Of a DNA stretch of 64,000 nucleotides, positions 6,283 to 46,800 are shown piece after piece. Source of the DNA: Protonemura montana (taxonomy: Eukaryota; Arthropoda; Insecta; Plecoptera; Nemouridae); NCBI GenBank assembly GCA_947568835.1, contig OX387607.1:3968001-4032000 (forward strand), in the 5' to 3' direction. The number at the start of each line of letters is the position of its first letter. The stretch's first letter is position 1. The notes under the pieces were generated by a model. The model worked only from the letters and a program-made list of their open reading frames with translations. It was not told the DNA's origin and ran no database searches. The translations under genes and the position numbers were made by a program.

Positions 6283-6739
6283 GCATTTTGTATTGTTAAT
6301 TCGTCTTTTTTAAACATCAGAAATATTTTTGCATACATTTGATGCTATCAGGCGTACGTACATACAAACAAGATTTTTATTTTTATTGTAATTACCTACT
6401 AGCGTGCATATAATGTTGCAATATTACACCTTTTTGATGGCTCGTTAAAATTATTAACGGTTCGTATAATATCACGGTAGGAAATTCTTTCTATATAGCG
6501 TAAAGCTATATTTTTTTTCATTTCGTCAATTTCCAATTTATGGATAATCATATCAAATTGCTTTCACAAAAGCGAAAGACATGAATACAAATTCCCCAAC
6601 CAATTGAGAGACGCTCAGCTAGGCGTTCGAATCGTCTCTCGTAAAAATTCCTCACAGCCCAAATTGAATGAAATAAAAATTCCTAAAAAAAAACGGAAAA
6701 TTCAAAGAAAAACCGGCGCTTTTTATCAGCCAATTGTTT

Positions 6740-6775
6740 TAGGTGAACGATGCCAACCATTTCATCGTTCACCTA
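6740..6775. repeat. Perfect 13-bp hairpin
   Basis: The arm TAGGTGAACGATG (6740-6752) is exactly reverse-complemented by CATCGTTCACCTA (6763-6775) around a 10-nt loop. The surroundings are AT-rich and non-coding. It may be a short foldback or a terminus of an old element. Confidence 0.8.
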
Positions 6776-8419
6776 TTTACGCTTTCGACCACTTCGCTAG
6801 ATGCGTTGTAGTGTCACTTGTTTCGCTCTTTCCCCTGGTCTTCCCCCCCAACGGGATCCCCCTCAGCGACGACGCCACCGTGATGGAGCGAGCCTCACGA
6901 CCGGGCCGACGCGACGCCGTCGCGACGCCGTCTCCAAGGAAATGGATGCTGCAAGCGACGCTAATGGACTCGCGTTTCTCTGCCCTCTGAGATGTAGCTC
7001 GCTGTTATGACTCTAGCTCTCTGACAAATTGGCGCCGGAAGAATGGAAGAGTGTGGCGGCACGCACTTTTCGAATGAAGATGCGTCGGCGTCTTAGACAT
7101 GAACACGTGACCTGTCATAACGATCGAACGTGGTGTGAGAATTTTCGTTTTCCTTTTTCCTCGAATAGTGAATTCTATTTCATCCGAGGAAGTATTTATA
7201 TAATCAACTTTTATAAAAATAAACATAAAAGAGTTTATGTGAAATATATTTAATTCTATGAGGAATTCCAATTGGAAAACTCTGAAACTATTTGAATCCG
7301 ACAAAAGCGTACGATTGAGACAAAACTTTCAACTTTATCAATGACCATGCTACGCTTGAGGATATCGAAGTCTTCTCTAATTTCCTCGACTTATTCATGC
7401 CACGGTCGGATGGGTGCAAGCTATCAAAGACAACTACTCGACTCGAGATAATGGCGTTTCCGTGTCACGAAAATATAATAATGATTAAATGACTTTGAAA
7501 ACATGTTCTAAGCTTCAAAGACTTTTCCGTCCGCGCTGCGGCGTCGAAGAAAACGCAAGTTTTTCACTGCGTTCGGCCTGTCGAATTAGAGTGCCAACCT
7601 TTCGAAATGATTAATCAGACTTATCTAGAATATCCGCATCGTGATAAATAGCTTTGCGGGGATTGCACTATCAAAAACAGAAATACATTTGGGTCATCAC
7701 TCGCGTTTTGCAATTGCTTTTGATAAACGCTTGAAAAGTTCAAAGAAAATCGCTTTTCATCGCGGAACGTATTTGCAATCAAGCCAAGCGATGACAATCC
7801 CATTTGATTTTGCCCGTTTGAAATTTTACCAATCAAATTTTGCTCAAAAATGATTTAACTATAGGAATGCTACGAACACTGTCACGAAATAAATAAATAA
7901 TATTTTTACTGAAACATTTGAATTCAGAGATAAAAGTGTGTATAAGTCCATGTACAGCATTTCTTACAGCATGAGTCCGTCAGTACAGTTTTGAATGTGA
8001 CATTTAAACCAACTGGTATGGAATAGAACCATCAAAACCGCAAATTCTGCAGCTCATCATGATCGCTCTAATCGGATTGCCAGTCGTGGGTCGCGTGTTC
8101 GTGTCCAGCTGTTATCTCATCACTGCTTGGCGCATGTCACCTGAGTGTTAATCGGTTAATAAGATTACGTCATTTTGCCCGTGCAGGTTAGCGAGGGTGG
8201 TTTGGTGAAGAAGGGGGGGGGGGGGAAGGAAGCCTGACATGGGCGAGCTGATACGGTAGCCTTTGCTCTTTGTCTATTGAGAAGTGCTGGTCTGCTGGTT
8301 TGGCTGGGCATTTACAGTGGCGTAATTAGTACGGAAATTGACGCAGTGGCGACCGACAAGCTCTACTTACATATTCGGGAACTATTTATTTATATTTTTT
8401 TTTTATCTATCAAGAAATG

Positions 8420-8670
8420 TAGTGCTAGTGCTAGTGCTAGTGCTAGTGCTAGTGCTGGTGCTAGTGCTAGTGCTGGTGCTAGTGCTAGTGCTGGTGCTAG
8501 TGCTAGTGCTAGTGCTAGTGCTAGTGCTAGTGCTAGTGCTAGTGCTAGAAACTAGTGCTAGTGCTAGAAACTAGTGCTAGTGCTAGTGCTAGTGCTAGTG
8601 CTAGTGCTAGTGCTAGAAACTAGTGCTAGTGCTAGTGCTAGTGCTAGTGCTAGTGCTAGAAAATAGTGCT
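8420..8670. repeat. (TAGTGC)n hexanucleotide satellite
   Basis: About 250 bp of the hexamer TAGTGC (GCACTA on the other strand), with single-base variants (TGGTGC) at first and then a recurrent interruption CTAGAAACTAG. It abuts a 44-bp sequence (8671-8714) that recurs at 49.2 and 52.55 kb. The hexamer therefore looks like the expanded 3' tail of a retroelement. The Ser-Ala and Val-Leu open frames here are translations of the repeat, not genes. Confidence 0.9.
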
Positions 8671-13900: not shown

Positions 13901-16900
13901 ATTAAAATAAAATGCTAGGCCAACAAAATGCTTGCCGCTATTTTGTAAATAGCTTTGCGTTGGTAAACTTTATGTAACCAATTTTTTATCTTGTTCTTCT
14001 CAGCAAACGCAGTAAAACCAAACAATTCTGCAAAATGTGATGTTCAAGGTGAAAAGTGTTTTAAATTTCAGTGCAAATTTTCTCACACAGTTTTATATTA
14101 CAACCCCATTGATGCACCTGTGCCAAAGCTATAAATTGCTTCAGGTTAGAAATTCTCTATCACTATTATGATTTTAACTAATAAAGTTGACTCTTTCAGT
14201 TCATAGTTAGAAATCCAATGCGGTGTTGCGTCAACTTTTCTACACATGAAAAAATCCACTCACAAATTCAATTTTGCCGGCCAAGCCTAGAAAAGGCGAG
14301 CACTAACTCATGCGAACCATTTGAAAACAGTGCACCGCACGAATTGAAAACGAGCTGATATTGCCGGTAATGATTTCCCGTCCAATTCCACCCCCCTGAC
14401 AAATAATTAAAAGTTTTGAGCAGCAGCCGTCAGGGTGTTTGGTTTCAACTTCACTCGCCAGCTGCGAGCTGGCATCGCGGTTTTCCGCAGTCAGCATTAA
14501 AAAGCCGTGCGCTGCAGTTTTGTAAATGCATTTCGTTGCAGATCTGATTCGTGGATAAAGTGCAGCTGCATTGTTGACGTGAATGTGGGTGAACTGCAAT
14601 GCGGAACAAGTGTCAAGATGTCAGCGACTGTTTTTTCTTTTTGTCATTTCGTGTTTGTCTGCCGACTGACAGAAATGAAATAATGGACGAGTGTCCATTG
14701 ACGTACCCACGCCTTGTTAGAGCTGGATTTTATTCATGCAATCTGTGAGAATCCAGATGGCGTGTCAGTTTGTCATTTGATGTCATTTGAATTTTGACCC
14801 CATTTTGATAAATCCTACAATATCAGAAAATGTGTTTTTTTTTTTTAACTATATGATGGTGCATTAATTGTAAAATATATTTGTGGCAAACGGAACTGCT
14901 GGGTCGTGTACCTCTAGTTATTCAACTACGCGAGTGCTAATTAAAATATCAAATTCAAATGACTGATGAATAATTTGGCAAACATTTTACATAATATGAT
15001 ATGTTGCTCTCACTCAAAAGTGGCCTTGAGACACGAGTCATCGTTCAAAGTTTCCCTGCCGCCCGCACGCTCAGTTAGCAAGGACGTTCAAGGTCAAGGC
15101 CATCTGCACTCAAGGTCATCACCTCGAACGGGAAGCGAAGAAGATGACGCCCAAATGAACACAATCGGGGTCAAATTGACTCTAGTAGGGAGTCCGTTAA
15201 TTCATTATTGTGACTCCCTAACGGAGTCAGATTGACCTCCTTGATGTAAAGACGACGAGTCGCCGACATCCCCGCCGCAACCGCAGCCAACACAACTTCG
15301 GTCCTCTGGGAGAAGACCAACAACAACAAAAAAGACATCCGCAGATATTCGCATTGTTCGTGTTTAGACCAAGTTTTTCGGTGAAATTTTACCGCTTGTC
15401 CCTTCTGGGTACAATTCGAAATCATTTGACTAACTTTTGCGGTCGCGCCACACATTTGAAAAAATAACTTGTTCGTAGTGCCCGACGCGCACTCTAGGGT
15501 CTCTATCGAGAAATAACGCGGCCTCGTTTTGTAATAAAGCTATACATGTTGGCAACGTATTGTTGGCGTTATAGCTACCTCATGACTTATTCATGAGCGC
15601 GTAAAGTTTTAGAGTCAAGGGCATTTTCTATTTTCTCAATATATGGAAATTGTTTTCCCACCAAGCTTGCCTGGAGGCTGCGCGGGGTAGTTTTATCTCT
15701 GGCATAACTTTCTCTCTAGCTTGATAAAGCAATGATGCTTTACAAGTACACATTGCCGGCTGATGGTAGTCATTCAGAAAGGGGTTGCACACAACCCTGA
15801 AGGCGGTCGTCATGCTTTCAGAGCCGAATTTCGTTCAGTAATTTCTAGAACTTGTTTAAAACAATTGCAGTGATTAGTCGTCGTGAAGTGGCGGACCCAG
15901 ACTTCTCAAGGACTTAACGCTGCAAATAAGCGCCGCGAAGGGAAGATGTTGCGCAAGAAAGACGCGATTTTTAACGACAATATTTCCCAACGTTTCCAAC
16001 TGACAAAACTGGGAATTAAATCCAGTCTGCGAACTGAATATTATCATTAAAGCGTATTCGATTTCGTATATTCTTCCCCCTCTCTTTCCGACGTGAAAGT
16101 TTTCCGCTATTCAACGGCTTCTTTGCCTCTCTTGAATTATTCCCGAACCAAGAAAGCCAGCGACTTAATAAATTGATATCGCTCCACTTCGCTACGGCGC
16201 CCAACTTGTGTGATCGAGTTACTGAACTGCAACTTGTACTTCGTTCTAATAACCATGATAATTAATTCCTGTGGTGATGGTCTGAAGCCATGAAGACACC
16301 ACGAACGCCGAAGCCTTGCGACAGAACACACACACACACAATTTATACGCTACGGCACCTAACTCTTGCTGATAATGTTATGTAGATGATATTATAATGA
16401 AATCGCGTGTTATATAACAAAGTTGCCTAAATGCCCGGATTGTTAACCAAGAATCGTACTTGAAAATTATCCTCGCTGAAATATTTGACTCCAGAGCGAC
16501 AATATTACAGCGTAGGGCGACGGGAAAACTTGGAATTTGAATTAATCACAGAGTTTCAAACGAGTTGATGTGACCTCGGCAAGAAGTAGGGATGCCATGT
16601 GCCGCGTTGCGGAGAGGAATAGTAATTTTGTATTCTTGAACGTGTGCCACCGAAACTATTACCAAGAGGGAAATGAAGTTTTATGACTGCAAAAAAATAA
16701 TAAGTTGACTGTCGCGATATGCAGGAACGTAGCGTTTTCCCGTGTGGGAAATGCAAATTTCATATTTCAACAAAGTTGAGATTGTTTTATGGTTGCATTG
16801 GAAACCATCAAACGTTTAAAGCTATTATCAGAATCGTAACGTTGGAATCTCACCAAGGAGCAATTGTAAAATAGTTTTCAACTAAATCTATGATAATAAA

Positions 16901-21600: not shown

Positions 21601-24600
21601 AAAAACACTGAGGATTATAATCATTATAATCATAAGAACCAGACTAAAATTATAACTACACTGAAGCCAGAAAATGTATCGGAACGCAGTGAAATAAAAT
21701 TTCTTGCCCTCTCGTCATGGATTTCCAAACAAACTCTTCGTGTAAATGACCGGTGCATGAGATTCTGAAAACCCCTCCTTCCTTGCACTAATTCTTTGTA
21801 CCTAGAATTAATGATAGGTACACTAAAACTGCACATCCTCTTAGCTTTCTGTCTTGCACGCGCCGTAAGGTCCCTACTTACCTGCACCATTCTCTATGTT
21901 GTGACTGTGAGTAGTCTATCTTGAACTGTAACCCAACTGTGTTCCACACATTCACAAAACCGCACCACTTCGAAATGCTCCTCCATTACCCGGCATCTCC
22001 ATCCGGCACTGGCCGAAAAGTATAAAATGAAAATGTTTTCCCCGATTTCCATAGCAATTCTGTGTTAAACATCTCCAATGTTTCGTGTTTCAATGTAATC
22101 ATGTTAGGAGTTACAAAATCAGGGTGTTATTAATCGTTTTACTAGAAGGAGAGTTGTTAATAGATCTATAGACTTGTACTTTCGATGGCGCTGTTCTAAT
22201 AATGGTTGGGCCCGTGCTGAATCCTTGGCGTGTCCCGGTGTTTTTGTGGGTAGCAAGCCCTCTTTTGAACTGCACTCGAACAAACGTGATCGGTTGATTT
22301 TGATTTTGAAAATCGGTGCTGGATGAAAATCGAGTTTTTTCCTAGATTTGAGTAAAAATTTCGCGAAGAGAATGGAAAATACATTGAAGATTTCGACAGG
22401 TTTAATGGATGGAATTTTAAACAGCTGATGAAAAACTGAAATCGAGTATGAAATTTTTGGCTTGTGAAAGGAAAATTTCGGCAAAGATTTTCATCTTTTT
22501 CGGCTTCGTCGACTTTCGTGGTCTATTTATTTCCGGTGTCGCTGGTGATCTCGCGGAATAACAGCCTTATAGATTTAAAACAATCGATATGATTTGCGAT
22601 TCGTGAAGCGAAGATTTAATAGAAAAAAATCGAGTTCAAAAGTATTGCAATTATTATCCTGACCCACATTGTGGCAATATTGTGATAGAACCGTTCCCTG
22701 AAACCCAATTCTGAAAGTCCTGAAGGTCACTTCCCCCGCAACCCGTTGCCCTCCACCCTTTGGATGTCCCGAACTCATAGATTGACGGAAAGCTCGGCAC
22801 ATTTTAAGTGTTAAATACCTGTATAATCACCTAATTGGGATGCAACAGCGTTTTATAAATTGCATAGGCTGTAATCTAAAAAAAAAATCCGATTACGTTT
22901 TCGCGTAGACGCGCGGCTTTCTCGGTACTAGAAAACCCAGGCAATGCCGCGAGTAGGTTGTGAACATGTAGCATGCCAACGTTAAACATTGCATTAAAAG
23001 AAAAATGAAAATAACACAACGATATATTGTAAAGGATTATATTTGGTGTTTGTACAGTAGCCAAGTGGATGAATGCTTTGTAAAAATAGGCCCTAAAGTT
23101 TTAGATTGTCTTCGATACGCTTGATACAGTTCAGATCAATGATTGCGTTTGAGCTCAGTAAATAAAGCCAACTAAAAATGTCGTTTTCAGAGAGTGTCTG
23201 ACGACGTATTGAGTTCACTGTAAGAAAATCTATTCGCCAAAGACACTTGATGAAAATCGTTGAATGCGTCGAAACTGTTTTCGAGCGATTGAAACGTTTT
23301 AGCTATATATGATGATGTTATTATTATACTTTAGAAGCAGACAAACGCGTGTGCAGACATGCGTGAAATATTACTCGGCAAGACGCTTTAGAATGGATAC
23401 AAAAAAAAAACGTAATGAGTTTTGTTAACAAAACATTCTTTAATGATGATGACGATGATGATTAAGACAAAACGTTTTAAACATATATGGTCCTTGCTAG
23501 ACCCATCTGTTTTTGGAGCAAAGAAATTGTTGTTATTCATATTGTTGTTAGTTGATTATTTATGAGAAAACATCCGCTGTTCTTACATGATATGTCATGC
23601 TGGACCTGTATACCTTTTATTGCTGGCATAACCGATCACCTACCCATGTCATAGTAATCGCCAGGGGCATTACGAACAGGTCGCTTGGTGAACGGTCCAC
23701 GTGATTTCTTTGTTTGATCAAATCGATGGCCAGAATTTTGGGAAGTTGACTGAAGGACTGTGAGAAGATAGTGTTTGGTTCGTAATGCCACTGGCGGTTT
23801 CCATCGTGTGAACATACCCTGTTCGTAAATTATTATTATGCATATCTGTTATTTGGAACCAACCGCCAAACATAAACACATGGACATTATAGTTGAAAAT
23901 ATTATGAAATAAAGTGACTCGTAAAATTTGAATGCTCTTTTCTTACAAATCTTCCTGCTTTGATTTTTCAACATGTAGATCAGTGTCTTAATCTCGGTGC
24001 TCAGGTAATTTTTTTCTTTCTTTAGCATTAACTTAAAAGTAAGCAGTTATTTTTGTAAAATTGCACCCATTCTAATTGAGATAAGTCTATGAAACAAATC
24101 TTTGTTTTTTAAGTAAATACTTGTGCAAATCTGAGCGCAGTTGGGTGCCATAGAGAAAAAAATGCTTATGTCATCTAACTCAATAATCTATCATCTAATA
24201 ATGCCATCTAATTTTGATGTCATCTAAATACATTTTCTAATATCTTCATTATCTTTCTAATTCGCATTCCGTAAATTCTTAGCAGCTGGTCCGTCATTGG
24301 GAGCAGTCGTCTGTGTGTTGCCGTTCTCAGCTCCTGGTTCCCGACATTCCAAGGTCATGTCATCAGCGCGGAATTCGTATTGCTCATGCAATAATGAAGA
24401 TTGCTGATGAAGTTCCTCAGGCATCTTTGGTAAGATCTATAGAAGGGCACGCCGGCTCGGTTCCGTCCTGAAAAGATATTTATTCTACTAATTTTAAATG
24501 GAACTTACCAGCTACTCGTTCTAAGGCCGATTCGTATTATGGTAGATACATGAAAAGAGGTTTTAGATAAATGGCCAAAACAGGAACAAACCATTTTTGT

Positions 24601-25329
24601 TTTTATTAAATGATGAAATTAAAGTTAAATTTTGGGTGACGACAAAGAGGGATTTCATATCAAAACGAATTAATCTAGAAATGGCAAAGAATTGCCCTAA
24701 ACATACTGGAGATGTGAAACTGTGTAACGCCCTGTCAAAATACATCAAAGAAAATGTGGGGCTGACGCTGCGAAGACGCTTAAAATAATTTTCAATTGAG
24801 AGTTGTCTTTATTCTGCAAGTAAATAGTGTAAATTGTAATCATGAATAAAAATGACATGTATAGAAAATAAACAAATTACTTTTCTTGTTGTTATTTTAG
24901 TTGAAGTAATTTTGGATTAGTCAAAGACGTGAGTCCGCAAAGGCGCGAAAAGGAGTCCCCCATTCAACAGCCGAAATCAGCATGTAATGCATCAGAATTG
25001 GACATGTTACCGGTAAATGCATTTTTGAGCAGATGACAGATGAACAGCTAGTGATCTGCTCGAAATGTGAGGCAACGGAGTCAATCCCAGTCGCAGTCAT
25101 TTGGGTGTGTAACTTGTAATCATCTCTACTATTATTAGTCTGGTATATTAGTTTAAAAACTCGTAATAATTACCAGGGTCAAGTAGGTGCAGTAGTGGGG
25201 GGGTTCTGAATCCAAATCCCGCTCAGAAACATTTCATTTCACGTCAGGCGTACGTCCAAGTTTCTAATACGGCAATTGAAAATGCCTTAGGACTGCTTGG
25301 TGTTGGGGTCATGTCCGGCATTCGTTGGC
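18631..25329. other. Spacer downstream of complexin
   Basis: No gene is supported. An AATAAA near 19072 could serve the complexin 3' end, but this is not established. Contents: a tRNA-derived insertion (19592-19785), pyrimidine-rich sequence near 20340-20560, a degenerate CATCTAA cluster near 24160-24240, a short (GAT)n stretch near 23445 and otherwise AT-rich DNA. A 64-codon frame at 24597-24788 is not supported as a gene. Confidence 0.6.
19592..19785 (-). mobile_element. tRNA-derived SINE-like insertion
   Basis: 194 bp flanked by the 12-bp direct repeat ACGTTTGTCGTT (19580-19591 and 19786-19797), the expected target-site duplication. On the minus strand a tRNA-like fold is visible: a 7-bp acceptor stem GTCCAAG/TTTGGGC (with G-U pairs), an A box near TAGCCCAATGGTTGAG, and a 5-bp T stem around TTCATGT. 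The anticodon arm has G at position 33 instead of the invariant U, so a functional tRNA is unlikely. The tail part recurs at 50868-50921. An additional inverted repeat (TTCCTAATAATA type) brackets the tRNA-like part. Confidence 0.7.
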
Positions 25330-25395
25330 ATTTGCGGAGCAGTCGCGCTCCGAAAATTTGCAGATATATACACATAGTTGCAAATATATACGTGA

Positions 25396-26474
25396 ATATA
25401 TGTCATGATAAGCTAAAAACTACCAAAGTAAAATTGAAAAGATATAAAAAATGTACAAATCTAGAGTGTAGTTCCAATTTTTTCCACCAGGTGGCACTCG
25501 CGTCATTTTTTCCCTTAACACTAAGTCCTAGTTCCTCTATACTTGTTGCTAGACTTAGGAGCTGCACACGGGGTATAGGTGGGGTTTGGGGTCGTGGGAA
25601 CGGCCCGCAAAATTGGCGGACGCGACTGGCGCGAAGCGCAAGGAGCGCCCGGCAATTTTGCTACTGTCTAAATCACACGCCCAAAAAAGTGCAAAAGATC
25701 GACCCCTCAAACAGGTCTTGAAGACTCGCATGGAAACGAAGAACGTTTATCCGCATTGTTCTTTCAATTCGTTTATATAATCTACAACTCCGACAGAAGT
25801 TTCTAAAAGAACTTTCACGGGATTCGATCCCGGGACCCCTGGCACATGGATTGCGTTCGCTAACCACACGACCATCCGAGGATGTTCATGTCGCATGTTT
25901 GTTTGATCTATATATTTATAAGAGACACCTGAGACAGTTGCAACCGAAGATGTCTCATATATACCAAATAAACCTCTGACGTGAACATCCTCGGATGGTC
26001 GTGTGGTTAGCGAACGCAATCCATGTGCCAGGGGTCCCGGGATCGAATCCCGTGAAGGTTCTTTTAGAAACTTCTGTCGGAGTTGTAGATTATATAATCG
26101 AATTGAAAGAATAATGCGGATAAACGTTCTTCGTTTCCATGCGAGTCTTCAAGACCTGTCGGAGGGGTCGATCTTTTGCACTTTTTTGGGCGTGTGATTT
26201 AGACAGTAGCAAAATTGCCGGGCGCTCCTGGCGCTTCGCGCCAGTCGCGTCCGCCAATTTTGCGGGCCGTTCCCACGACCCCAAACCCCACCTATACCCC
26301 GTGTGCAGCTCCTAAGTCTAGCAACAAGTATAGAGGAACAGGACTTAGTGTTAAGGGAAAAAATGACGCAAGTGCCACCTGGTGGAAAAAATTGGAACTA
26401 CACTCTAGACTTGTACATTTTTTATATCTTTTCGATTTTACTTTGGTAGTTTTTAACTTATCATGACATATATC
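25396..26474. repeat. Palindrome 1: 492-bp arms, 95-bp linker
   Basis: Arm 25396-25887 is the reverse complement, with scattered differences, of 25983-26474. The linker 25888-25982 lies in the opposite orientation to the linkers of the other three copies. The right arm ends abruptly in the box-B part of a tRNA-like head (26475 on), which marks a rearrangement junction. Confidence 0.9.
25809..26061. other. Divergent tRNA-like pair 1
   Basis: Two 79-bp tRNA-like sequences point away from the 95-bp linker: 25809-25887 on the minus strand and 25983-26061 on the plus strand. Each has an A-box-like TGGTCGTGTGG and a B-box-like GGATCGAATCC at tRNA spacing, and TTTT immediately follows GTTC, as at a Pol III terminator. 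The acceptor stem does not pair properly, so these are tRNA-derived, not tRNAs. Confidence 0.75.
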
Positions 26475-26579
26475 GAATCCCGTCCGCACAACTACTGCAG
26501 TTTCACACCTTTTATTATTTTTTTTAGCGCACAGTGTAGACAGCAGGAAATTTGCGGAGCAGTCGCGCTCCGCAAATTT
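26475..26579 (+). mobile_element. Truncated tRNA-like head with hairpin
   Basis: Begins inside a B box (CGAATCCCGTCCGCAC), runs through a T-rich stretch and ends with a perfect hairpin (26548-26579: AAATTTGCGGAGC, a 6-nt loop, then its reverse complement). The same sequence, inverted and with the whole tRNA-like head, closes the array at 29648-29825. It seems to be the outer end of the same repeat family. Confidence 0.75.
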
Positions 26580-27563
26580 GCAGATATACACACATAGGTG
26601 CAAATATATACGTGGATATTTGTCATGATAAGCTAAAAACTACCAAAGTAAAATCGAAAAGATATAAAAAATGTACAAGTCTAGAGTGTAGTTTCAATTT
26701 TTTCCACCAGGTGGCACTCGCGTCATTTTTTCCCTTAACACTAAGTCCTGTTCCTCTATACTTGTTGCAAGACTTAGGAGCTGCACACGGGGTATAGGTG
26801 GTGTTTGGGGTCGCGGGAACGGCCCGCAAAATTGGCGGACGCGACTGGCGCGAAGCGCCAGGAGCGCCCGGCAATTTTGCTACTGTCTTAATCACACGCC
26901 CGAAAAAAGTGCAAAAGATTGACCCCGCAAACAGGTCTTGAAGACTCTAGTTTCTAAAAGAACCTTCACGAGATTCGATCCCGGGACCCCTGGCACATGG
27001 ATTGCGTTCGCTAACCACACGACCATCCGAGGATGTTCACGTCACAGGTTTATTTGGTATATATGAGACATCTTCGGTTGCAACTGTCTTAGGTGTCTCT
27101 TATAAATATATAGATCAAACAAACATGCGACATGAACATCCTCGGATGGTCGTGTGGTTAGCGAACGCAATCCATGTGCCAGGGGTCCCGGGATCGAATC
27201 CCGTGAAAGTTCTTTTAGAAACTTCTGTCGGAGTTGTAGATTATATAAACGAATTGAAAGAACAATGCGAATAAACGTTCTTCGTTTCCATGCGAGTTTT
27301 CAAGACCTGTTTGAGGGGTCGATCTTTTGCACTTTTTTGGGCGTGTGATTTAGACAGTAGCAAAATTGCCGGGCGCTCCTGGCGCTTCGCGCCAGTCGCG
27401 TCCGCCAATTTTGCGGGCCGTTCCCACGACCCCAAACCCCACCTATACCCCGTGTGCAGCTCCTAAGTCTAGCAACAAGTATAGAGGAACTAGGACTTAG
27501 TGTTAAGGGAAAAAATGACGCGAGTGCCACCTGGTGGAAAAAATTGGAACTACACTCTAGACT
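26580..27563. repeat. Palindrome 2, left arm internally deleted
   Basis: P arm 26580-27038, linker 27039-27133, P' arm 27134-27563. The left arm lacks a segment of roughly 85 bp just after GGTCTTGAAGACTC (near 26947), present in all other copies, so the palindrome is asymmetric there. Confidence 0.85.
26960..27212. other. Divergent tRNA-like pair 2
   Basis: Minus copy 26960-27038 and plus copy 27134-27212 around linker 27039-27133. Box motifs and T-runs are as in pair 1. The B box of the minus copy carries one change (TCTCG for TCCCG). Confidence 0.75.
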
Positions 27564-28133
27564 AGTAAAAACTACCAAAGTGAAATCGAAAAGATATAAA
27601 AAATGTACAAGTCTAGAGTGTAGTTTCAATTTTTTCCACCAGGTGGCACTCGCGTCATTTTTTCCCTTAACACTAAGTCCTGTTCCTCTATACTTGTTGC
27701 TAGACTTAGGAGCTGCACACGGGGTATAGGTGGGGTTTGGGGTCGTGGGAACGGCCCGCAAAATTGGCGGACGCGACTGGCGCGAAGCGCCAGGAGCGCC
27801 CGGCAATTTTGCTACTGTCTAAATCACACGCCCAAAAAAGTGCAAAAGATCGACCCCTCCGACAGGTCTTGAAGACTCGCATGGAAACGAAGAACGTTTA
27901 TCCGCATTATTCTTTCAATTCGATTATATAATCTACAACTCCGACAGAAGTTTCTAAAAGAACCTTCACGGGATTCGATCCCGGGACCCCTGGCACATGG
28001 ATTGCGTTCGCTAACCACACGACCATCCGAGGATGTTCACGTCACAGGTTTATTTGGTATATATGAGACATCTTCGGTTGCAACTGTCTCAGGTGTCTCT
28101 TATAAATATATAGATCAAACAAACATGCGACAT
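27134..28133. repeat. 1000-bp unit A (905-bp palindrome plus linker)
   Basis: Left arm 27134-27563 and right arm 27610-28038 are reverse complements of about 430 bp separated by a 46-nt A-rich loop. Linker 28039-28133 completes exactly 1000 bp. A transcript through it would fold into a very long hairpin. Confidence 0.93.
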
Positions 28134-28212
28134 GAACATCCTCGGATGGTCGTGTGGTTAGCGAACGCAATCCATGTGCCAGGGGTCCCGGGATCGAATC
28201 CCGTGAAAGTTC
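27960..28212. other. Divergent tRNA-like pair 3
   Basis: Minus copy 27960-28038 and plus copy 28134-28212 around linker 28039-28133. The linker is A/T-rich with TATAAATATATAG-type sequence. Confidence 0.75.
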
Positions 28213-29133
28213 TTTTAGAAACTTCTGTCGGAGTTGTAGATTATATAAACGAATTGAAAGAACAATGCGAATAAACTTTCTTCGTTTCCATGCGAGTCTT
28301 CAAGACCTGTTTGAGGGGTCGATCTTTTGCACTTTTTTGGGCGTGTGATTTAGACAGTAGCAAAATTGCCGGGCGCTCCTGGCGCTTCGCGCCAGTCGCG
28401 TCCGCCAATTTTGCGGGCCGTTCCCACGACCCCAAACCCCACCTATACCCCGTGTGCAGCTCCTAAGTCTAGCAACAAGTATAGAGGAACTAGGACTTAG
28501 TGTTAAGGGAAAAAATGACGCGAGTGCCACCTGGTGGAAAAAATTGGAACTACACTCTAGACTAGTAAAAACTACCAAAGTGAAATCGAAAAGATATAAA
28601 AAATGTACAAGTCTAGAGTGTAGTTTCAATTTTTTCCACCAGGTGGCACTCGCGTCATTTTTTCCCTTAACACTAAGTCCTGTTCCTCTATACTTGTTGC
28701 TAGACTTAGGAGCTGCACACGGGGTATAGGTGGGGTTTGGGGTCGTGGGAACGGCCCGCAAAATTGGCGGACGCGACTGGCGCGAAGCGCCAGGAGCGCC
28801 CGGCAATTTTGCTACTGTCTAAATCACACGCCCAAAAAAGTGCAAAAGATCGACCCCTCCGACAGGTCTTGAAGACTCGCATGGAAACGAAGAACGTTTA
28901 TCCGCATTATTCTTTCAATTCGATTATATAATCTACAACTCCGACAGAAGTTTCTAAAAGAACCTTCACGGGATTCGATCCCGGGACCCCTGGCACATGG
29001 ATTGCGTTCGCTAACCACACGACCATCCGAGGATGTTCACGTCACAGGTTTATTTGGTATATATGAGACATCTTCGGTTGCAACTGTCTCAGGTGTCTCT
29101 TATAAATATATAGATCAAACAAACATGCGACAT
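28134..29133. repeat. 1000-bp unit B (near-identical to unit A)
   Basis: A tandem copy of 27134-28133 differing at only a few bases (for example T for G at 28277). This indicates very recent duplication, homogenisation by gene conversion, or an assembly duplication. Confidence 0.93.
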
Positions 29134-29212
29134 GAACATCCTCGGATGGTCGTGTGGTTAGCGAACGCAATCCATGTGCCAGGGGTCCCGGGATCGAATC
29201 CCGTGAAAGTTC
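28960..29212. other. Divergent tRNA-like pair 4
   Basis: Minus copy 28960-29038 and plus copy 29134-29212 around linker 29039-29133. Sequence and spacing are the same as in pair 3. Confidence 0.75.
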
Positions 29213-29635
29213 TTTTAGAAACTTCTGTCGGAGTTGTAGATTATATAAACGAATTGAAAGAACAATGCGGATAAACGTTCTTCGTTTCCATGCGAGTCTT
29301 CAAGACCTGTTTGTGGGGTCGATCTTTTGCACTTTTTTGGGCGTGTGATTTAGAAAGCAGCAAAATTGCCGGGCGCTCCTGGCGCTTCGCGCCAGTCGCG
29401 TCCGCCAATTTTGCGGGCCGTTCCCACGACCCCAAACCCCACCTATACCCCGTGTGCAGCTCCTAAGTCTAGCAACAAGTATAGAGGAACAGGACTTAGT
29501 GTTAAGGGAAAAAATGACGCGAGTGCCACCTGGTGGAAAAAATTGGAACTACACTCTAGACTTGTACATTTTTTATATCTTTTCAATTTTACTTAGGTAG
29601 TTTTTAGTTTATCATGACATATATCCACGTATATA
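29134..29635. repeat. Final P' arm of the array
   Basis: Continues the period from 29134. It diverges from the 1000-bp units after about 29560, running on into the outer A/T-rich end instead of the 46-nt loop, and so restores the same end as palindrome 1. Confidence 0.85.
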
Positions 29636-29647
29636 TTTGCAATCTGC

Positions 29648-29679
29648 AAATTTGCGGAGCGCGACTGCTCCGCAAATTT
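29648..29679. repeat. Perfect 13-bp hairpin in array end
   Basis: AAATTTGCGGAGC and its reverse complement flank a 6-nt loop. The same hairpin is at 26548-26579, with a degraded copy near 25330-25358. Confidence 0.9.
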
Positions 29680-29737
29680 CCTGCTGTCTACACTGTGCGC
29701 TAAAAAAAATAATATAAGGTGTGAATCTGCAGTAGTT

Positions 29738-29825
29738 GTGCGGACGGGATTCGAACCCGGGACCCGGGCAATCTCATGATTATTAACAAGAGGTAGTGCC
29801 TTGTACCGCACGACCACGCGGACAT
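29738..29825 (-). mobile_element. tRNA-like head closing the array
   Basis: On the minus strand it runs from GTCCGCGTGGTCGTGCGGTA (A box) to GGGTTCGAATCCC (B box), followed by GTCCGCACAAC. It is the complete form of the truncated head at 26475. It resembles the A-box region of the neighbouring SINE-like sequences, so the array seems linked to a tRNA-derived element. Confidence 0.65.
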
Positions 29826-29924
29826 CTGGTTGCAAAGTCATTTTTATGGTACATAATTTCTTCAGACTGCAGCTACCATATGTGAATAATTTGAATGTCG
29901 TATTCCAATAGAAAAAATATCCTG

Positions 29925-30006
29925 TCGGTGAGCGGGATCAAACCAGGTCACAATGTAGCTTGATGGTTCCGAAGTAACGACATGTCCATTGTGCTACGCA
30001 GACGGT
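29925..30006 (-). mobile_element. tRNA-derived SINE-like head
   Basis: The minus strand has an A-box-like TAGCACAATGGACA and a B-box-like GGTTTGATCCCG at tRNA spacing; GACCGTCTGCG at the start resembles arginine tRNA heads. It differs from the head at 29738, so a second family is likely. Confidence 0.5.
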
Positions 30007-30466
30007 CGCCCATGCTATGATAAACTTAATATATTTTAATTTCATATCTGATGTCCTTGTTTACCGGGTTCACTATAGGCACATGTCACTGACGGCACTC
30101 AATGTATACTACGGTTCGGAGTCGCATTCTTCTTTGCGTTTCAGTGAACCATCATTTAAGAAATTCAAGATATTATGACCGACTTACGCAGCGAGCAAGA
30201 ACTGGACCTGACCCCCGCACCAAGTAATGCAGGGGCAATCGTCCACTCCAAAGATACGGCCTACCACCAGTTGCCGCGATCTAGCGTAAAAGGGTCAGCT
30301 GATAGCGCCCTCTGCAGGGACGCGAGCCACACCCAGTTGCTGGTTTGCCGTTTTTTTTTTTTGCCTTCTTATCTGACCCCTGCAGCATGGAGATCGCTTC
30401 ACACTACATCGCCTCTGCCATCCACTATCAAAGATTGTGCAAGCTATGTCGTGAAGAACAAAAAGC

Positions 30467-30545
30467 GGTGCGGACAGGACTCGAACGCGGTCACATCCGA
30501 ATTGCTCTTTCGAGGAGCGACTTTTCCAACCGGCCGTCGAGACGA
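30467..30545 (-). mobile_element. tRNA-derived SINE-like head
   Basis: B-box-like GCGTTCGAGTCCTGTCCGCA on the minus strand, followed by TTTTTGTTCTTCA, which is also found after the head at 30711. The A-box region is degenerate. The open frame at 30175-30645 crosses this repeat and is not supported as a gene. Confidence 0.45.
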
Positions 30546-30710
30546 GATGCTTATTGATGGAACAAAGAGATACATGAATAGCAGAAGACGACTACAGTGT
30601 TATAATGAAAAGAGTCAAAAATACTTTGAGAGTTTCGATGGATGAACGAGCGATGCAATATCAGAGCATTTAATGAATACCAGTCGCCACTTGATGAAGA
30701 ACAAAATGAG

Positions 30711-30790
30711 GATCGGGCAGGATTCGAACCCGAGAAATTTAAGCAATGTCCCCATGAAGAAGTGGCCGTACCTCACGGCCACTGAGACGT
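30711..30790 (-). mobile_element. tRNA-derived SINE-like head
   Basis: On the minus strand, CAGTGGCCGTGAGGTACGGC (A box) and GGGTTCGAATCC (B box), then ATTTTGTTCTTCATCAAG. It shares its post-head sequence with the copy at 30467. Confidence 0.6.
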
Positions 30791-30920
30791 GTTGCCATAT
30801 CAAAGGAAATAACATATACTTGAATAGCAGCTGGCGGGGATCACGGTACACCATCGAGAAGAGATGTTAGTTTTCTCTGTAAAGATTAATACATATCCAG
30901 CAGTTTTACACACATGTGAC

Positions 30921-31105
30921 TTACCTGCTTCGAACCAGCGACCCTCTGCACCCTGGCGCTGAGCACGAGAGCGATCTTCACTCGCTGCCGAATGGACGCT
31001 ACGAACACCGGCGAGAGTTGCATATGACAATACTTTAACAATCTTGGTAGGTGATTGATTCTTAGTTAAAAATAGTGCACCAAGCGGGATACGAACCCGG
31101 CCCCG
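30921..31105 (-). mobile_element. Two further B-box-bearing fragments
   Basis: GCTGGTTCGAAGCAGG (minus strand, near 30924-30940) and GGGTTCGTATCCC (minus strand, near 31086-31100) are B-box-like. Their A-box regions are not clear, so they are treated as degraded tRNA-derived fragments. Confidence 0.35.
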
Positions 31106-31180
31106 TTTATCCTCCGTTCCACTTTCATGTACCTTTTGCAGGAAGTAAATAAAACAAGATATAAAGAAATCACGTCTAGC

Positions 31181-31968
31181 CAGTGTCGGACTGGCCAGGG
31201 CAGCCAGGCGGCAAATGCCGCAGGGGCCTCCAGCCGGCCGTGGCCCCTGGGGCCCCGGCCGGCTGGATTTTTTAAATTTGATTTTCGTGCTTAAACCCAC
31301 AAATCATGGTTCCAAACATAATTTTGGGAACATAATTTTGGGAACCAGTATGTTTTTGCCCTAGCACAAGCACTTTTCTGAGAAGTAGATAGACGATTTC
31401 AAAAAGGCTTTATTTTCAGTAATTCCAAAGGCAATTAATATTGTGTTGTAATATCGTGTTAATATCGTGTATCGTGTTACTACGATTTCGTAGAGTCCTG
31501 TAGCCTGGTTGTAAATCGTCTATTCAATTTTATGAATCGTCGACGTGTTGACTCTTGTCGACAAATTTTTTCATTTAATTTTGGCGAGTGAGGTGCTGCC
31601 TGAGTTTTTTTCGGGGCACAAAATTTGGGTTTTGCTTCGGGCGTCCAAACCCTACACTGTGCGTACACGACACAATCGTATCTCAAGTCGATACGTCACA
31701 GGTGTAGAATTTTGGTTTAATTAATTTCAAATTGGCCATTGATCGATCATTGTATCTGTACAATCTCCATTCTCTAACGCCGGACTTGGGCGTTGTTACC
31801 AGTTTATGTGTATACAACCCTTAGTTTACCTATACACCACCTTGCATATACATTCCTTTCCTGCTTGGCAGACCCCCCCCCCCCCCCCCCCCCCCCCCAA
31901 GGTATGGGCTTTGCGGGGCCCCAAAAGTCTCATTACCGCCGGGGCCTTTTGGAGCCAGTCCGACACTG
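31181..31968. mobile_element. Non-autonomous hAT-like TIR element
   Basis: The 15-bp terminal inverted repeat CAGTGTCGGACTGGC is exact at both ends of 788 bp. CAGTG...CACTG ends are typical of hAT transposons. The inside holds GC-rich foldback sequence near both ends, a 16-bp direct duplication near 31318, ATCGTGT repeats near 31450 and a 26-base C run. No transposase is present. Flanking 8-mers (CGTCTAGC and TATGTTAG) do not match, so no target duplication is visible. Confidence 0.7.
31873..31898 (+). repeat. Poly-C tract (26 C)
   Basis: The longest C run in the window, inside the TIR element. Its length is likely variable or unreliable. Confidence 0.9.
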
Positions 31969-32027
31969 TATGTTAGCTTGAGTCAGGTGACTTATATATC
32001 TCAAAAATGCTGATGACTATCTACGTT

Positions 32028-32115
32028 CGCGTGGTCTTGCGGTTAAAGGCAACGAATTCATCGCTCTATTGAGCAAATTAGTGTAGAAGTGCTAGGTTCG
32101 AATCACGTTCGTTCC
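32028..32115 (+). mobile_element. tRNA-derived SINE-like head (plus strand)
   Basis: A-box-like TGGTCTTGCGGTTAAAGGC and B-box-like AGGTTCGAATCAC on the plus strand, with a long variable region between them. It lies just left of a fragment of the palindromic family. Confidence 0.55.
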
Positions 32116-32154
32116 ACGACTCACTTTCACACTCCGAAAGATATTTTTTTTTGC

Positions 32155-32232
32155 GTATAGTTTAGACACTAGCAAAATTGCCGGGCGTGACTGGCGCTTC
32201 GCGCCAGTCACGCCCGCCAGTCACGTGTGCAG
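32155..32232 (+). repeat. Detached fragment of the palindromic family
   Basis: TTTAGACACTAGCAAAATTG followed by CCGGGC matches the P' block (for example 27348 on). Here the central cruciform is a perfect 15-bp stem (32183-32215, GGGCGTGACTGGCGC with a TTC loop), while copies in the array keep only its inner 7 bp. Confidence 0.75.
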
Positions 32233-34664
32233 TCGCAGCAACTTACACGTGTGAATAAATTCCACTCACCTGTTTTCGGTCAGTTCCATGAGCTATTTTT
32301 ACTCTCGGGGCATAAAGTAGATGGGATCTGTGGGTCGATGAATCTTGAAGAAAAGTCCGTCGTATAACTTGGGTCTGCAGAGTGCTAAACCTCGAGTGCA
32401 GAGATAGTATGATATTATTATAGACTTATGCCGGGCTAGGCTAATTTACGGGTTGGTCAATGCTTAGTTGAACACCTTACTTCATAAAGAAAGCACTTTG
32501 CTCCAAATCATCACATTTTATTAATGTCTCTGTTAGTTTTTTTATCCAACAAACATAAAAAGATAGAGTGAAGAGATGTTCCCCTTTTCTAGCCATTACG
32601 GAAGCCCGTTCCAGGGAATAGCGGTTTTTGGGGATAGCAAAATACACCCTCACTTCCTTGAGAGCACTATTTTGGCATTGTGGATCTTACATTGCTTTAC
32701 TGGCATATTTTACTTACAACATTATTTTAACACGATACCTTGAAGCTAACTTTCGCTCAATACTGCCAAAAAGCTTCCTGAATCGCAATCATTAACTTCG
32801 GTTAAAAAGTGCTTTCTTCTTCATTTCAACTTACCTTGTCAACGCAGTTCTCGCCGAACCAGTTCCTATTCATCGAGAAGAATCCAGTTTGCACATAACG
32901 TCAATTGCTTCTACTTCCCTACAATCAGGCTGACAAATGAAGTAGCTTCAATTTTGTTTAATGCATACAACATTGACACATATCACAAGGAATGTCAACT
33001 CATATCAAGCAAATCGTTGGCCTGCAGTGACGATAAAATTACACATGTATTAAAAAATCATAGCAGCGACTTGGCTAAAGTTTTCTTAATGAATGAGTGT
33101 TGCAGTGAATGTTTTGAGTTTGAGTGCAGTCGATGTACCTAAGTGCATGTGTCTCCTGTGAGTATGTGGCGCCCATGAGTTGTAAAAAAGCACGGCGAAC
33201 TTACAAGTTGGCCCTAGACCGTCTTAAAGATTGTTTCAATCAAGTGTCAGCAAGAAGTTTTTAGCAAAAGATCTGTGTCATATGAGAATTGACTAGGATA
33301 GAAAATGTTCATAGATATATCTAGTACATTTTTACTTCGATAGAAAACGGGTAAAATTACGTTTTAAATGGCTCTTTTTTACACCCTGTGTGAGTTTTTA
33401 TTTCACAGTTTCGCAGCAAGTAGGAAATTGAAGTATCTATATCATATATATTTTTTCATCATACGGTAGTAAAATGTCTCTATTTTTTAATGCAGAACTC
33501 CGAGTTAAAAATGCGAAACAGTTTCTTGTATTCAAGATCAAAGTTTTACGTTAGCTTATTCATACTGTGAACCGCACCAGCAGTTAGAACAAATAACCGC
33601 CACGTAAAAAAAAATATATATATCGTCAGCAGGTAATCCCTGAGCGGAAATTTTCACGAGCGTCTGAAATTGTGAATAAGATAATTGGCATTTTGATTGC
33701 AACAGCTTTAGACTCTCACTGATTGCTCGCCTGCGACAGCGAACAGCCACCGCCGAAGGCGCGATGGCAATTTACATAAAACACTAGACACAAAAAATTA
33801 TCAACAAAATACGCTCGCAATTTCGGTCAGAAGGGCTAATTGTCTTGCACTATTACAGTCTCGGCATTTTCCAAACATTTCATAAACACTAAACAGAAAC
33901 ACAATCGCGAAGATATCAAGCGACACACGGAGGCAGCGAGGAGTTCGTCGTGGGGTTCCAGTCGTGAGGACCCCGCCGAGAAGACGTTGGCAAACATTGA
34001 AAAATTTGCGCGAACGGCGAAGCAAGCAGTCAAACGCCTTCCGTGCCAAGGGGCTTTTTGGTGGTTGTACTTTGACACGGCGCTGTGGTGATATTAGTCG
34101 GTCCCTTGGCCACAGCCTATACACCTATAAGCACTGATTTATAAAGATTTTCATTGGATTCTAGAATAATATATAATTTCTTTTTTCTTTCAGCCAATAT
34201 TCAGAATTTTAAAGAGAGTATTGGCAACTGTAATGCAATGCATTCGGTAGTAGTAATATAAGCCAGCTCTTAGCAATATATAACGTTGTCAATTCTATTA
34301 CTAGTGATAACAAGGAGATTAATTTCCTTAATAATCGGTTCGCATTTCCTCATTTAAACCATAGGACTCAGAATAACAAAGTGTCCAGGGCTTAACCTCA
34401 AGTGAGTCTATCTATTCCACGAAACCATCGTGTGCTCATAAAACAACTTAGACAACGCCAAATCCGATCCCGGACGGCAATCTCACTAGCACCACATCCC
34501 CGTGTCAATTCACAGCCCGTCCAAACGCCCCCTGACCACCTACGTCTGACGACGCATCGCTCCCATCACGCGCGCAAAGTGAGCACGACGACGGCCAGAC
34601 CGACGCCGGCTAAGACCGACGCCACGAGCGCCGCGACTACGACGAGACGCCCGCGGCAGCGTTG
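32233..34664. other. Spacer downstream of RhoBTB
   Basis: No gene is supported. Sequence just left of 34665 is GC-rich and probably RhoBTB 3' UTR. Farther left it is AT-rich with a short (TA)n at about 33609-33622. No clear polyadenylation signal could be assigned. Confidence 0.5.
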
Positions 34665-43800: not shown

Positions 43801-46800
43801 CAAACGACATGGTTTACTGTTTTGCCAAACAAGATGACTAAACGTTAAACCATGTAGTTTCTTTTTTAGAGACCAAAAATACACCTCTTTCGTCGGCTCG
43901 TAGTTATCTACTTTAGGGGGAACTTAGAGGGTGGAACTTTCTACCGGGATCAGCCCACACATTAATTTTGAGTCTTTTCCCCTAGTTGTTGAAAATCAAC
44001 AACGTCGCCATTCTTGCACACTTTATAAAAATCATAACCAAATATTTTTTATCACAAACCATAGTAACTACACCTGCTAAAATTACACCCCCTCGCATAA
44101 CCCAATCCAAAAACCTCTTGCTGATCATACAAGAAGATCCATAAACATGGCAGCATTTCGTGGCATCATCAATATTGTCATGCCCACAATCCGGATGATA
44201 CAAAAATTAAATCGGCACTCGCCCTACACAGTGAATTCCGACACGTCCCCATTAACAGATGTCTTCATTACATATCCCCTGCTCGTCTTTGTAATGCCCT
44301 TATGTGCTGTTGCAGTCTACTTCATTATCACCGTGAGTCGTATAGATGCATTTTTTCAAAAAACTTTTTTTTTCATACAACTTTTCTTTCAGTGATTAAA
44401 TTACGTCTACGGTCTAGTGAAAATTTAGATATATCTAGCTTTAAAGTGGTGCAGAGTCAATTAAACTCACAAAAAAACTATATTCGATATCAAATTTACA
44501 AGCATTGGGTCACGTTAATAAAAGATTCGAGTTGAAATGGAAAAATATTCAGCGTTTGTAAATACTTTTTGCAAGTTTCCTCTCCCTCCTAACTACACTT
44601 ACTCACCGTGCGGTGAGCATTGCTTCATTCTTATTGCTAAGTCACTGGTAACGACAACGTAGAGTTATTCTCATTTTGTCCCGTATACGCGTTGGATGTT
44701 AAGACGTAAATACCCCAACCTATTCCCCGCTGCAGGGCTTTGCATGGTGCCTGGCGAGGCCGGCTACAGGGAGGACCGAGGTGGCACAAAGGAGTGTTCC
44801 AGTTTCCAAAACCGAGGTGAGTCGAACTGCTCGTGTCTAAGCAATCAAATCATTTATGGAAAGCCGGAAAACCCTTTCTCAAAACATATGTACTGTTTAT
44901 TCATATATTTTTTTTAACAAAAAATTGTTAAGCAGCCACCTACGTTGAAAGAATATACCCTCATGCAGACGCACCTGGCGTAAGATTGATTCGGTTTGAT
45001 AATGTTGTCTCTATAGATGAACTTAGAAGAGAAAATACAAATTTACGAGAAATATCTGACTCTGATGAATTCTGAGTTGGGTCCATCTGCTCCTGCAACA
45101 GTGAATAACAAAAGAAAGCCATCGAGAGAAATGCGGCCCCCGCTCCGTAGCGTGCCCGACCCCGCAGACTGGCTTCCAGAACTCGGTGAAGGACGCGAGA
45201 AGCCTTCCAAAGAGTTGAAGAAATCGAGTGTTTCCGACCCCAAAGTGCCCCGCGCCAAGGGCGAGAAAGAAGTGGCGAGATCGGTGGGTGCTAAGAAAGA
45301 TTTGCAATCCTGCAAAAAGAGAGTCCGCTTCAATTTAACCTGCTCTAAAACAAAATTCTCCGGAGACCTCAGGAACGAGTCGGCAGCTGGAAGTCTAGCC
45401 GAAGTTGTCGTCAGGCCGCAAGGTCCGACGCCGACATCTTTGAGCGAATCGCCGCACCTGCGTCCACCAAAAACCGACTTGGAGACTGAGAATGTTTTTC
45501 AGGAAGAAGCCAATTCAACGCCTCTCGGTCGCTCGTCAAGTTCACGTCCCAACGAGCACCCGCGGATAAAAATGGAGTTCCGATCGGGTTACAGACAGAC
45601 AGGGTTGTTTGTCTCATTTCCTCTCCCAGAAGATGCCGAAGAAGAACCAGCTTCGAAGTCTAGGCCTTGTGACTCACTGGCGAGTAGTGAGGTGTCCAGC
45701 AGATGGTCAGATGTATCCAGAAAGCTGATGTCTGGTGAAGGGAAAGACGCTGATAGTAAGCAGCGAAACGAAGAATCACCAGGAGATCGCTCACGTTTAC
45801 AATCTTGGAGAAATGCCTCCAAGGCCATGGAACGCGGTAAGGCACAAAAAGTGGCTGATGGCAAGTCGCAAGCCGAAAAAGAATCGGGATTAAGCACAAG
45901 CTCAGACGATTCGGGGAAGTCCTTTAAATCCACGAAACGCAGAAAAAAAATGGCAAAAAGGCCTGATGGAAAGATGCGATCCGAAGAAGCCTTAGACGAC
46001 CGCGTAAGCTTCGACTTTTGGGGGAATGCCTCCGAGATTACTAAGCGCAGAAAAAGAGCGCCAAAAGAGGCTGATGACAAGATGCAAACCGAAGAAGAAT
46101 CTGAAGAAGTCTGCACAAGCCTGGACGATTCAGAGAAGTCCTCAAAGTTCACGAAAAGCATAAAGAAGGTGGCAAAAGAGGTGGGCAGAAAGGCTATCAG
46201 CATAGCAGAGTATGACGTCCGACCTCAAGCTAAGAAGATATCAAGGTCGTATGAGTATCAGCTCCCCGAGCTTTGCCTCGCTACTGGCAATGGCTCTACA
46301 TCAGCGAAGGAAAGAACAACGAAGCGCGTGTGCCCGCTGATCTCGGGGTCTACGAAGCTGTCGAGAACTAGATTCGAATCTCTGCAGCGCCGCTTGCTCC
46401 ACGCCTCTCTGAGCGCCTCGCTTTCCAGTCCAGAAGACTCTGACGGAAGTATTCCAAGGCTAGACCAACCGCTTGCAGAAGCCAGATCGGTTACATCTCG
46501 TTCCCATTCGAGGCCCACAGCTTCAGTGTGCTCCTCAAAATCGGAAGAAGGCAGCAAAACGCGTTCAAGCTCGGAACAACATCGGCGACGCCGCGCATCA
46601 CCGTCCAATGTGCTGCGGCAAGCGGACAGCGGCGACGACTCAGACTCGCCAGTGGGTCGACCAGCGCCCGAACAGAGGCAAGCGGTCACCATCACGTATT
46701 TAATGAATGCGTCGCCTCCAGAACGACTTCCGTTGGTACCCTTGAGGTCGAAGCAAAGCACGTGCTACACTTCCACCAAGAGACTCGGATCCTCGGAACC

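Follow-up and report, generated by a model that had tools for sequence, protein, structure and literature searches.

Tandem palindromes in Protonemura montana as the probable expandable core of a non-coding hAT-like transposon

A palindromic array lying between two convergent genes of Protonemura montana very probably belongs to a large, non-coding DNA transposon of hAT-like type, as its expandable internal core. The window analysed here is a stretch of 64,000 nucleotides (contig OX387607.1, positions 3,968,001 to 4,032,000) that is free of N. Dispersed copies of the element share a common layout: left terminal inverted repeat (TIR), left arm, palindromic core, tRNA-like cluster and right TIR. 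The window copy would represent such an element after loss of its left end, and its features are as follows.

25284..31968, unstranded: hAT-like non-autonomous element in left-truncated form, lacking its first ~1.04 kb on the left and with it the left TIR
25284..25322, unstranded: short module, dispersed according to its genome matches, that borders the palindromic core on the left
25330..25913, minus strand: palindrome 1, left arm (alpha), beginning with hairpin hp1
25957..26474, plus strand: palindrome 1, right arm (beta), from inverted-repeat pair I1
26473..27064, minus strand: palindrome 2, left arm (beta); its tRNA-like head is truncated, and it also holds hp1 and a ~68-bp deletion near 26947
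27108..27567, plus strand: palindrome 2, right arm (alpha)
27566..28567, unstranded: palindrome 3, running from a beta arm through the linker to an alpha arm
28566..29660, unstranded: palindrome 4, with its parts in the same order as in palindrome 3 and its alpha arm extending to hp1
29646..29679, unstranded: intact copy of hairpin hp1, identified from sequence
29744..29826, minus strand: tRNA-like head 1, carrying A and B boxes; a T-run and hp1 come after it on this strand
29744..31100, minus strand: cluster of six tRNA-like heads, with B boxes at 29747, 29935, 30477, 30720, 30927 and 31087 (positions picked by eye; a strict A/B-box scan recovers 2/6)
31181..31256, plus strand: repeat of the element's left end at an internal position, with TIR CAGTGTCGGACTGG
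31344..31968, plus strand: right end of the element, with the terminal inverted repeat at 31955-31968

A palindromic array had been predicted at 25330-29830, and four palindromes are indeed found there, with linker centres near 25935, 27086, 28086 and 29086, although the repeated object reaches further, to 25284 and 31968. The exact 1000-bp period proposed for the array holds for three palindromes but not for the first spacing, which is 1151; direct-repeat families are spaced 1151, 1000 and 1000. Successive 1000-bp units are near-identical, as had been claimed, with 3 differing sites in linker-centre frames, and one and the same junction (query positions E270|E230) recurs at 27566 and 28566. 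Inverted-repeat arms match at 96% over 499 nt with a 43-nt gap (28566-29064/29108-29606) and at 97% over 383 nt (27682-28064/28108-28490), and further pairs are present. Several details of the original prediction require correction: palindrome 1 is inverted relative to palindromes 2-4 and in flipped orientation matches palindrome 3 at 99% over 1002 nt, the left arm of palindrome 2 carries its deletion internally, and each palindrome contains two distinct arm types (alpha and beta) that are ~4-5% apart. The convergent neighbours were correctly anticipated, with complexin on the plus strand (two frames match PF05835 Synaphin) and a Ras+BTB+BTB gene, read as RhoBTB, on the minus strand; no tie between the array and these genes was found in this analysis. 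The gene set, together with mir-929, points to an arthropod source.

Truncation of the window copy is evident at its left edge. Sequence at 24300-25284 matches itself and only three weak partial places, and in another copy (L018) 1036 bp of element separate the left TIR from the equivalent of 25284. Among the matches listed, 36 of 40 fall at query 981-1036 (window 25280-25335), with 40 of 83 candidates scored. The right end is common to other copies, the segment 29836-31180 is matched at no fewer than 40 scored places (window included, some matches being partial-length), and matches of many related copies start or stop at E159, the outer edge of hp1.

A complete copy, L056 (4652 bp, 2576-7227), defines the ends of the family. 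Its inverted ends CAGTGTCGGACTGG/CCAGTCCGACACTG agree at 14/14 bp and are flanked by a target site duplication (TSD), TTGGCAAC, at 8/8. Beyond 14 bp the ends of this one tested copy diverge (15/20, 19/30, 25/60) and its long inverted repeats are internal, so that the long terminal inverted repeats of foldback elements are not seen in it. Its core is without a window-type palindrome, yet rich in smaller inverted repeats. Across 13 left/right end pairs, 10 of which were chosen non-randomly by the analyst from end-match lists and two of which (on C3) share one left flank and are thus partly dependent, the TSD matched at 8/8 in 4, 7/8 in 4 and 6/8 in 1. The 4/13 pairs without a TSD are a counterweight to the transposon reading, as are the long element flanks seen at only 14/38 loci; one of the TSD-less pairs (C1:21.129) uses an internal end copy. 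As the window copy has no left TIR, its own TSD falls outside these counts. With up to 2 mismatches, the left-end 23-mer has 228 matches in the genome and the right-end 27-mer 82, while reversed-pattern controls have 0.

TIRs of hAT elements are short and start with CA(G)NG. As in the hAT superfamily, the family described here combines an 8-bp TSD with a short TIR starting CAGTG, and the TIR start and TSD length point to a putative hAT assignment. No transposase was found in the family copies examined. The genome has 77 matches to PF05699, and none of the 8/77 loci examined for an autonomous partner has a CAGTGTCGGACTGG-type TIR within the stretch read. Another hAT, L087, has an 891-aa frame, TIR CAGTGGCGTCACCA and TSD CCTGTAGG, but its TIR differs from that of the family after CAGTG. 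The string CAGTGTCGGACTGG itself was not found in the literature searched. Finding the TIR and the 8-bp duplications led us to abandon Helitron and Penelope-like interpretations. A phage origin was also rejected, an 801-bp query having no match; in viral contigs, a 16-base hairpin pattern matched 6 stretches (L009-L014) and a 24-base pattern none.

Copy number varies widely within the family. Of 39 loci scored (window included), 12 have at least two palindromes, 26 have one and 1 has none, with a range of 0 to 7; a further copy, C5:921508-938741, has 14. One assembly contains a graded series of 1, 2, 3, 4, 5, 7 and 14 palindromes with several junctions. The largest copy is 17.2 kb long, holds its 14 palindromes between matched ends with TSD ATCAACTC (8/8), and includes a duplicated 4-unit block (units u3-u6 equal u7-u10 with 1 difference). 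Other spacings include 999, 917, 916, 840, 976, 1064 and 1092; periods differ among arrays, and a functional 1000-bp spacing is rejected. In our reading of the alignment, the L036 array is reversed relative to tRNA head 1. Judged from the sequence, duplication of a single palindrome by the assembler is extremely unlikely to explain such arrays. Some units are identical, as this would predict, but others have private differences, periods and junctions vary among loci, and the 14-unit copy retains its matched 8-bp duplication; the window is also free of N.

The original prediction of recent origin or active amplification is upheld for recent, repeated tandem amplification but not for the palindrome itself. 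Identity between units is 98.7-99.7% within arrays versus 91.4-98.2% between them (excluding L041 and units outside 850-1150 bp; L037 yields no unit). Units cluster by array, and copy number and period differ among loci, which supports local expansion of the tandem copies. In contrast, 70/74 classifiable arms cluster by arm type rather than by locus in an arm tree drawn from a total of 127 arms; the other 53 are every arm of loci L019-L024, L026-L031, L041-L046 and L052, where the linkers match neither of the two patterns. The alpha and beta arms are thus two old lineages found across dispersed loci, and the palindrome predates most of the spread of the family. Gene conversion between arms, which had also been proposed, looks occasional, with 4/74 arms placed with the opposite class by tree topology. 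The rule that emerges is an old palindrome in a young array.

A and B boxes at the head are a Pol III feature of tRNA-derived SINEs. Within 25280-32300 we found 11 A/B-box pairs, compared with a mean of 0.2 (maximum 1) in 30 randomised copies, using consensus boxes with analyst-set cut-offs. No tRNA was called in the array by ARAGORN (bacterial mode) or Rfam at E up to 1. At the same threshold, cmscan hits to miRNA, sRNA, antisense and snoRNA models were all below gathering scores and a tmRNA candidate was only a 12-bit fragment, so these named families were rejected. A rival reading takes the palindromes for a separate repeat, tRNA-derived and SINE-like, that builds arrays by itself and came to sit in the transposon through insertion only. 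In its favour, at least 57 matches are listed for a related module of tRNA head plus hairpin (31985-32235), for which 40 of 750 candidates were scored, and this module makes up arrays elsewhere (C12:6687-6691k, C5:16635-16642k). Around 38 fetched loci, other element sequence is short (~40-190 bp) in 16, weak in 2 (L016, L032) and absent within the ~1.3-1.5 kb fetched in 6 (L017, L022, L025, L031, L041, L052, including a 5-palindrome array). However, at least 300 bp of it flanks the remaining 14, and in many of 19 loci compared the arms stop at the same hp1/head positions beside the same element sequence, with no A-tail seen by eye at the edges of those 19. In addition, a run of TTTT or longer lies within 60 nt downstream of 5/6 cluster heads (T-run background 27%), and a Pol III transcript would therefore be expected to end before the hairpin and core. 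We consider an independent repeat unlikely.

The near-perfect 809-nt hairpin of palindrome 1 (25531-26339), which folds as a single DNA strand at -496.7 kcal/mol compared with -107.2 +/- 3.9 for 20 shuffles, also invites the idea of a selected hpRNA (endo-siRNA) locus that silences the transposon family or a gene. Tandem hpRNA clusters with fast-changing copy number are described for Drosophila (PMC10317233). Against this, 26/39 loci hold a single palindrome, and in the conservation test, which covered the tRNA-like cluster, the heads are more variable than the remaining sequence (pairwise difference 0.0665 versus 0.0454, 12 copies, circular-shift P 0.935). The tRNA-like parts thus show no excess conservation over the sequence around them, selection acting on this cluster is rejected, and a selected hpRNA locus is highly improbable. 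Also very unlikely is a mobile palindrome-satellite seed, in which an internal Pol III-type palindrome would time and again turn single insertions into long hairpin arrays whose dsRNA silences or protects the family, with array length selected rather than drifting.

For the hAT-like element that we favour, the best mechanism is that transposition spreads the element and unequal exchange, as we infer it, resizes the core. A hAT transposase supplied in trans would move the element. The unit junction E270|E230 of the 1000-bp unit is common to several loci, which indicates that an element already bearing tandem palindromes moved; each array was subsequently homogenised and resized where it had landed. 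Whole units may be gained or lost by unequal crossing-over or replication slippage between repeats, palindromes may flip by exchange between inverted arms, and the 1000-bp period would reflect ancestral unit length rather than functional spacing.

In the literature searched, the closest known systems are the Drosophila virilis transposon Tetris and, in Atlantic cod, a hAT MITE with tandem repeats. Tetris is a foldback, non-autonomous DNA transposon without conserved ORFs, whose internal tandem repeats are variable in number and expand to satellite-like arrays, with unequal crossing-over considered (PMC4079207). The present family likewise has modular, rearranged copies, variable-number internal tandem repeats and no autonomous partner found among the loci examined. 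However, the Tetris repeats are ~220 bp and lie within long TIRs, its TSD is 8-10 bp (Mutator was suggested by its authors) and no tRNA-like modules appear in the sections consulted (PMC4079207), whereas here ~1-kb palindromes occupy the core, the TIR is 14 bp, the 8-bp TSD is hAT-like and tRNA-like modules are present. The cod element gadMor-hAT-1784 similarly amplifies internal tandem repeats within a hAT element, but with 167-169-bp units, ~600-bp TIRs and a link to inversion breakpoints (PMC12368964), in place of ~1-kb palindromes and tRNA-like heads. No hAT element built of tRNA-like palindromes was found in the portion of the literature searched.

Since this layout is that of a transposon family whose ends are of hAT type, and similar amplification has been published, the array is no stand-alone novelty: its parts are unusual, but its kind is already known. 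The exact 1000-bp period has no special meaning, as other arrays differ. The family offers a natural setting in which to test how satellite arrays are seeded by a DNA transposon and how ~1-kb palindromes persist, invert and increase in number within an animal genome.

As assembled, the array consists of four palindromes, centred at approximately 25935, 27086, 28086 and 29086 (centre-to-centre spacings of 1151, 1000 and 1000), whose arms reach 499 nt in length and are 96–97% identical. Each palindrome has one alpha and one beta arm (~95–96% identity over the common body) around a diverged, near-palindromic linker of ~100 bp, and the arms bear short GC-rich hairpins and tRNA-like heads. Palindromes 2–4 share an orientation, while palindrome 1, inverse to them, is 99% identical to palindrome 3 across 1002 nt. 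When framed on linker centres, the two 1000-bp units differ at three sites. Modelled as single-stranded DNA, palindrome 1 has a fold energy of -496.7 kcal/mol versus -107.2 for shuffles. The sequence CCACCAGGTGGCAC (25484–25497, followed by A or G) occupies the same place in 8/8 aligned arms and bears what we take to be a resemblance to the CTCF core motif. The genome surveyed comprises 34 contigs (258 Mb), with the window at C5:3968001–4032000; genes and element ends around the array are as follows.

Left of the array, + strand: complexin (PF05835 in two frames)
15166–15242: mir-929 precursor, between two complexin exons (84.3 bits); a microRNA indicative of an arthropod
31181: internal copy of the left end, window copy
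31955–31968: right end (TIR) of the window copy
Right of the array, - strand: Ras+BTB+BTB gene

The Ras+BTB+BTB gene is read as RhoBTB. An uninterrupted 1285-codon open frame (45017–48874, +) apparently lies within an intron of this gene, and a Pfam search with it at E up to 0.01 returned no match. An array of 39.5 copies of (TAGTGC)n was also seen at 8420–8659.

An 801-bp query (linker, arm, the hairpin hp1 and tRNA head 1) has a minimum of 183 matches in the genome, with 39 of 516 candidates scored. Across the 39 loci compared (the window and 38 fetched others), 26 have one palindrome, 12 have at least two and one has none, giving 67 palindrome centres. Segments outside the array are also repeated, whereas 24300–25284 essentially is not (itself and three weak, partial places only), indicating that the repeated unit extends beyond the array. 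Specifically, 29836–31180 matches at least 40 places (40 of 506 candidates scored; 91–96% identity outside the window, some partial-length), as does 31344–31968 (40 of 357 scored). In the ~1.3–1.5-kb flanks of the 38 fetched loci, further parts of the element total 300 bp or more at 14, while 16 have only shorter segments, two have weak ones and six, including the five-palindrome array L041, have none.

The ends of the element were examined in L056, an uninterrupted copy of 4652 bp with CAGTGTCGGACTGG inverted at either end and the target duplication TTGGCAAC on both sides. Its ends match over 14 bp and no further, and its longest stop-to-stop frame is 153 codons. The target duplication is 7/8 at L057 and 8/8 (ATCAACTC) at C5:921508–938741. 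Among ten further, hand-picked end pairs, two score 8/8, three 7/8 and one 6/8, while four show no duplication. Over all 13 pairs, the totals are 8/8 in four, 7/8 in four, 6/8 in one and none in four; one pair without duplication, C1:21.129, relies on an internal end copy, and two C3 pairs have one left flank in common. Those four of 13 pairs, together with the flank tallies of the 38 loci (long element segments at 14, none at six), were counted against the transposon reading. In support of a transposon are the transposon-type ends, the target duplications and the dispersed copies that carry the core. Genome counts of the end patterns are 228 (left) and 82 (right), with 0 for reversed controls; they take in ends that are internal or iterated, and do not give the number of elements. 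No outer left end was found for the window copy, where 25284 adjoins unrepeated sequence; L018 has 1036 bp of element ahead of the equivalent point.

At the edge of the 17-kb C5 copy, the left end occurs five times with a 34-bp period (L081:109–277; C5:921508–921676), and the 8-bp target duplication sits outside this block. Similar 34-bp spacing of the left-end pattern is seen at C13:1499920–1500112. No partner transposase was found in the 8 of 77 hAT-domain loci examined. A different, apparently complete hAT on C11 (L087:944–4262) has a 14/14 TIR, CAGTGGCGTCACCA, the TSD CCTGTAGG and, where the hAT domain lies, a frame of 891 aa.

Of 127 arms collected, the linker allowed 74 to be assigned to a type, 37 of them alpha and 37 beta. 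In a midpoint-rooted tree, with clades read by eye and without support values, one clade holds 35/37 alpha arms plus two beta arms (L047, L048), and the rest holds 35 beta arms plus two alpha arms (L016, L025). Mean identities between loci are 95.8 (alpha-alpha), 95.9 (beta-beta) and 94.5 (alpha-beta), with 95.6 for alpha-beta at the same locus. This grouping by type and these identities indicate that the palindrome is older than most of the spread, and that arm-to-arm conversion is occasional at most.

Unlike arms, units group by array. Within-array identity is 99.7% for the window array, 99.3 for C5:921k, 99.4 in L035, 98.7 in L036, 99.1 in L040 and 99.3 in L038, compared with 91.4–98.2 between arrays. 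A junction of query positions E270 and E230 is common to the window, L035, L036, L037, L040 and C5:921k; a second is common to L038 and L039, and a third occurs in L041. There thus seem to have been several tandem starts within one family. At C5:921k, units u3–u6 equal u7–u10 except for one base, as left by duplication of a block of four units. The arrays display common junctions, local homogenisation and, inside one of them, segmental duplication. Flipped palindromes are palindrome 1 in the window and one, the last, at C5:921k, and in L036 we read the whole array as reversed relative to tRNA head 1. The L056 core is without a window-type palindrome yet has many smaller inverted repeats, which points to a palindrome-prone sequence throughout the core.

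A/B-box pairs number 11 versus 0.2 by chance, and neither ARAGORN (bacterial mode) nor Rfam recognised a tRNA at these sites. A T-run lies within 60 nt of 5/6 heads, versus 27% of same-strand 60-mers. In 12 copies the six heads vary more than the rest (0.0665 vs 0.0454; circular-shift P 0.935), with no sign of selection on them. The tRNA-like parts look like passengers of Pol III gene origin. Directly after the element's right end lies a separate tRNA-head-plus-hairpin module (31985–32235; at least 57 matches, 40 of 750 candidates scored), which has its own arrays at C12:6687–6691k (~784 bp) and C5:16635–16642k (~2440 bp).

The nearest published cases found are Tetris (PMC4079207) and a cod hAT MITE (PMC12368964), both non-autonomous DNA transposons whose internal repeats multiply. 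Relative to these, the Protonemura family differs in its unit, a ~1-kb palindrome of tRNA-like heads and hairpins, in having its repeats in the core rather than the TIR, and in enclosing as many as 14 units within matched ends. A hAT transposase acting in trans would move the element, arrays may change size through unequal exchange or slippage, and flips could arise from exchange between inverted arms. Judged from sequence comparison, the palindrome of this family is probably old and its arrays young.
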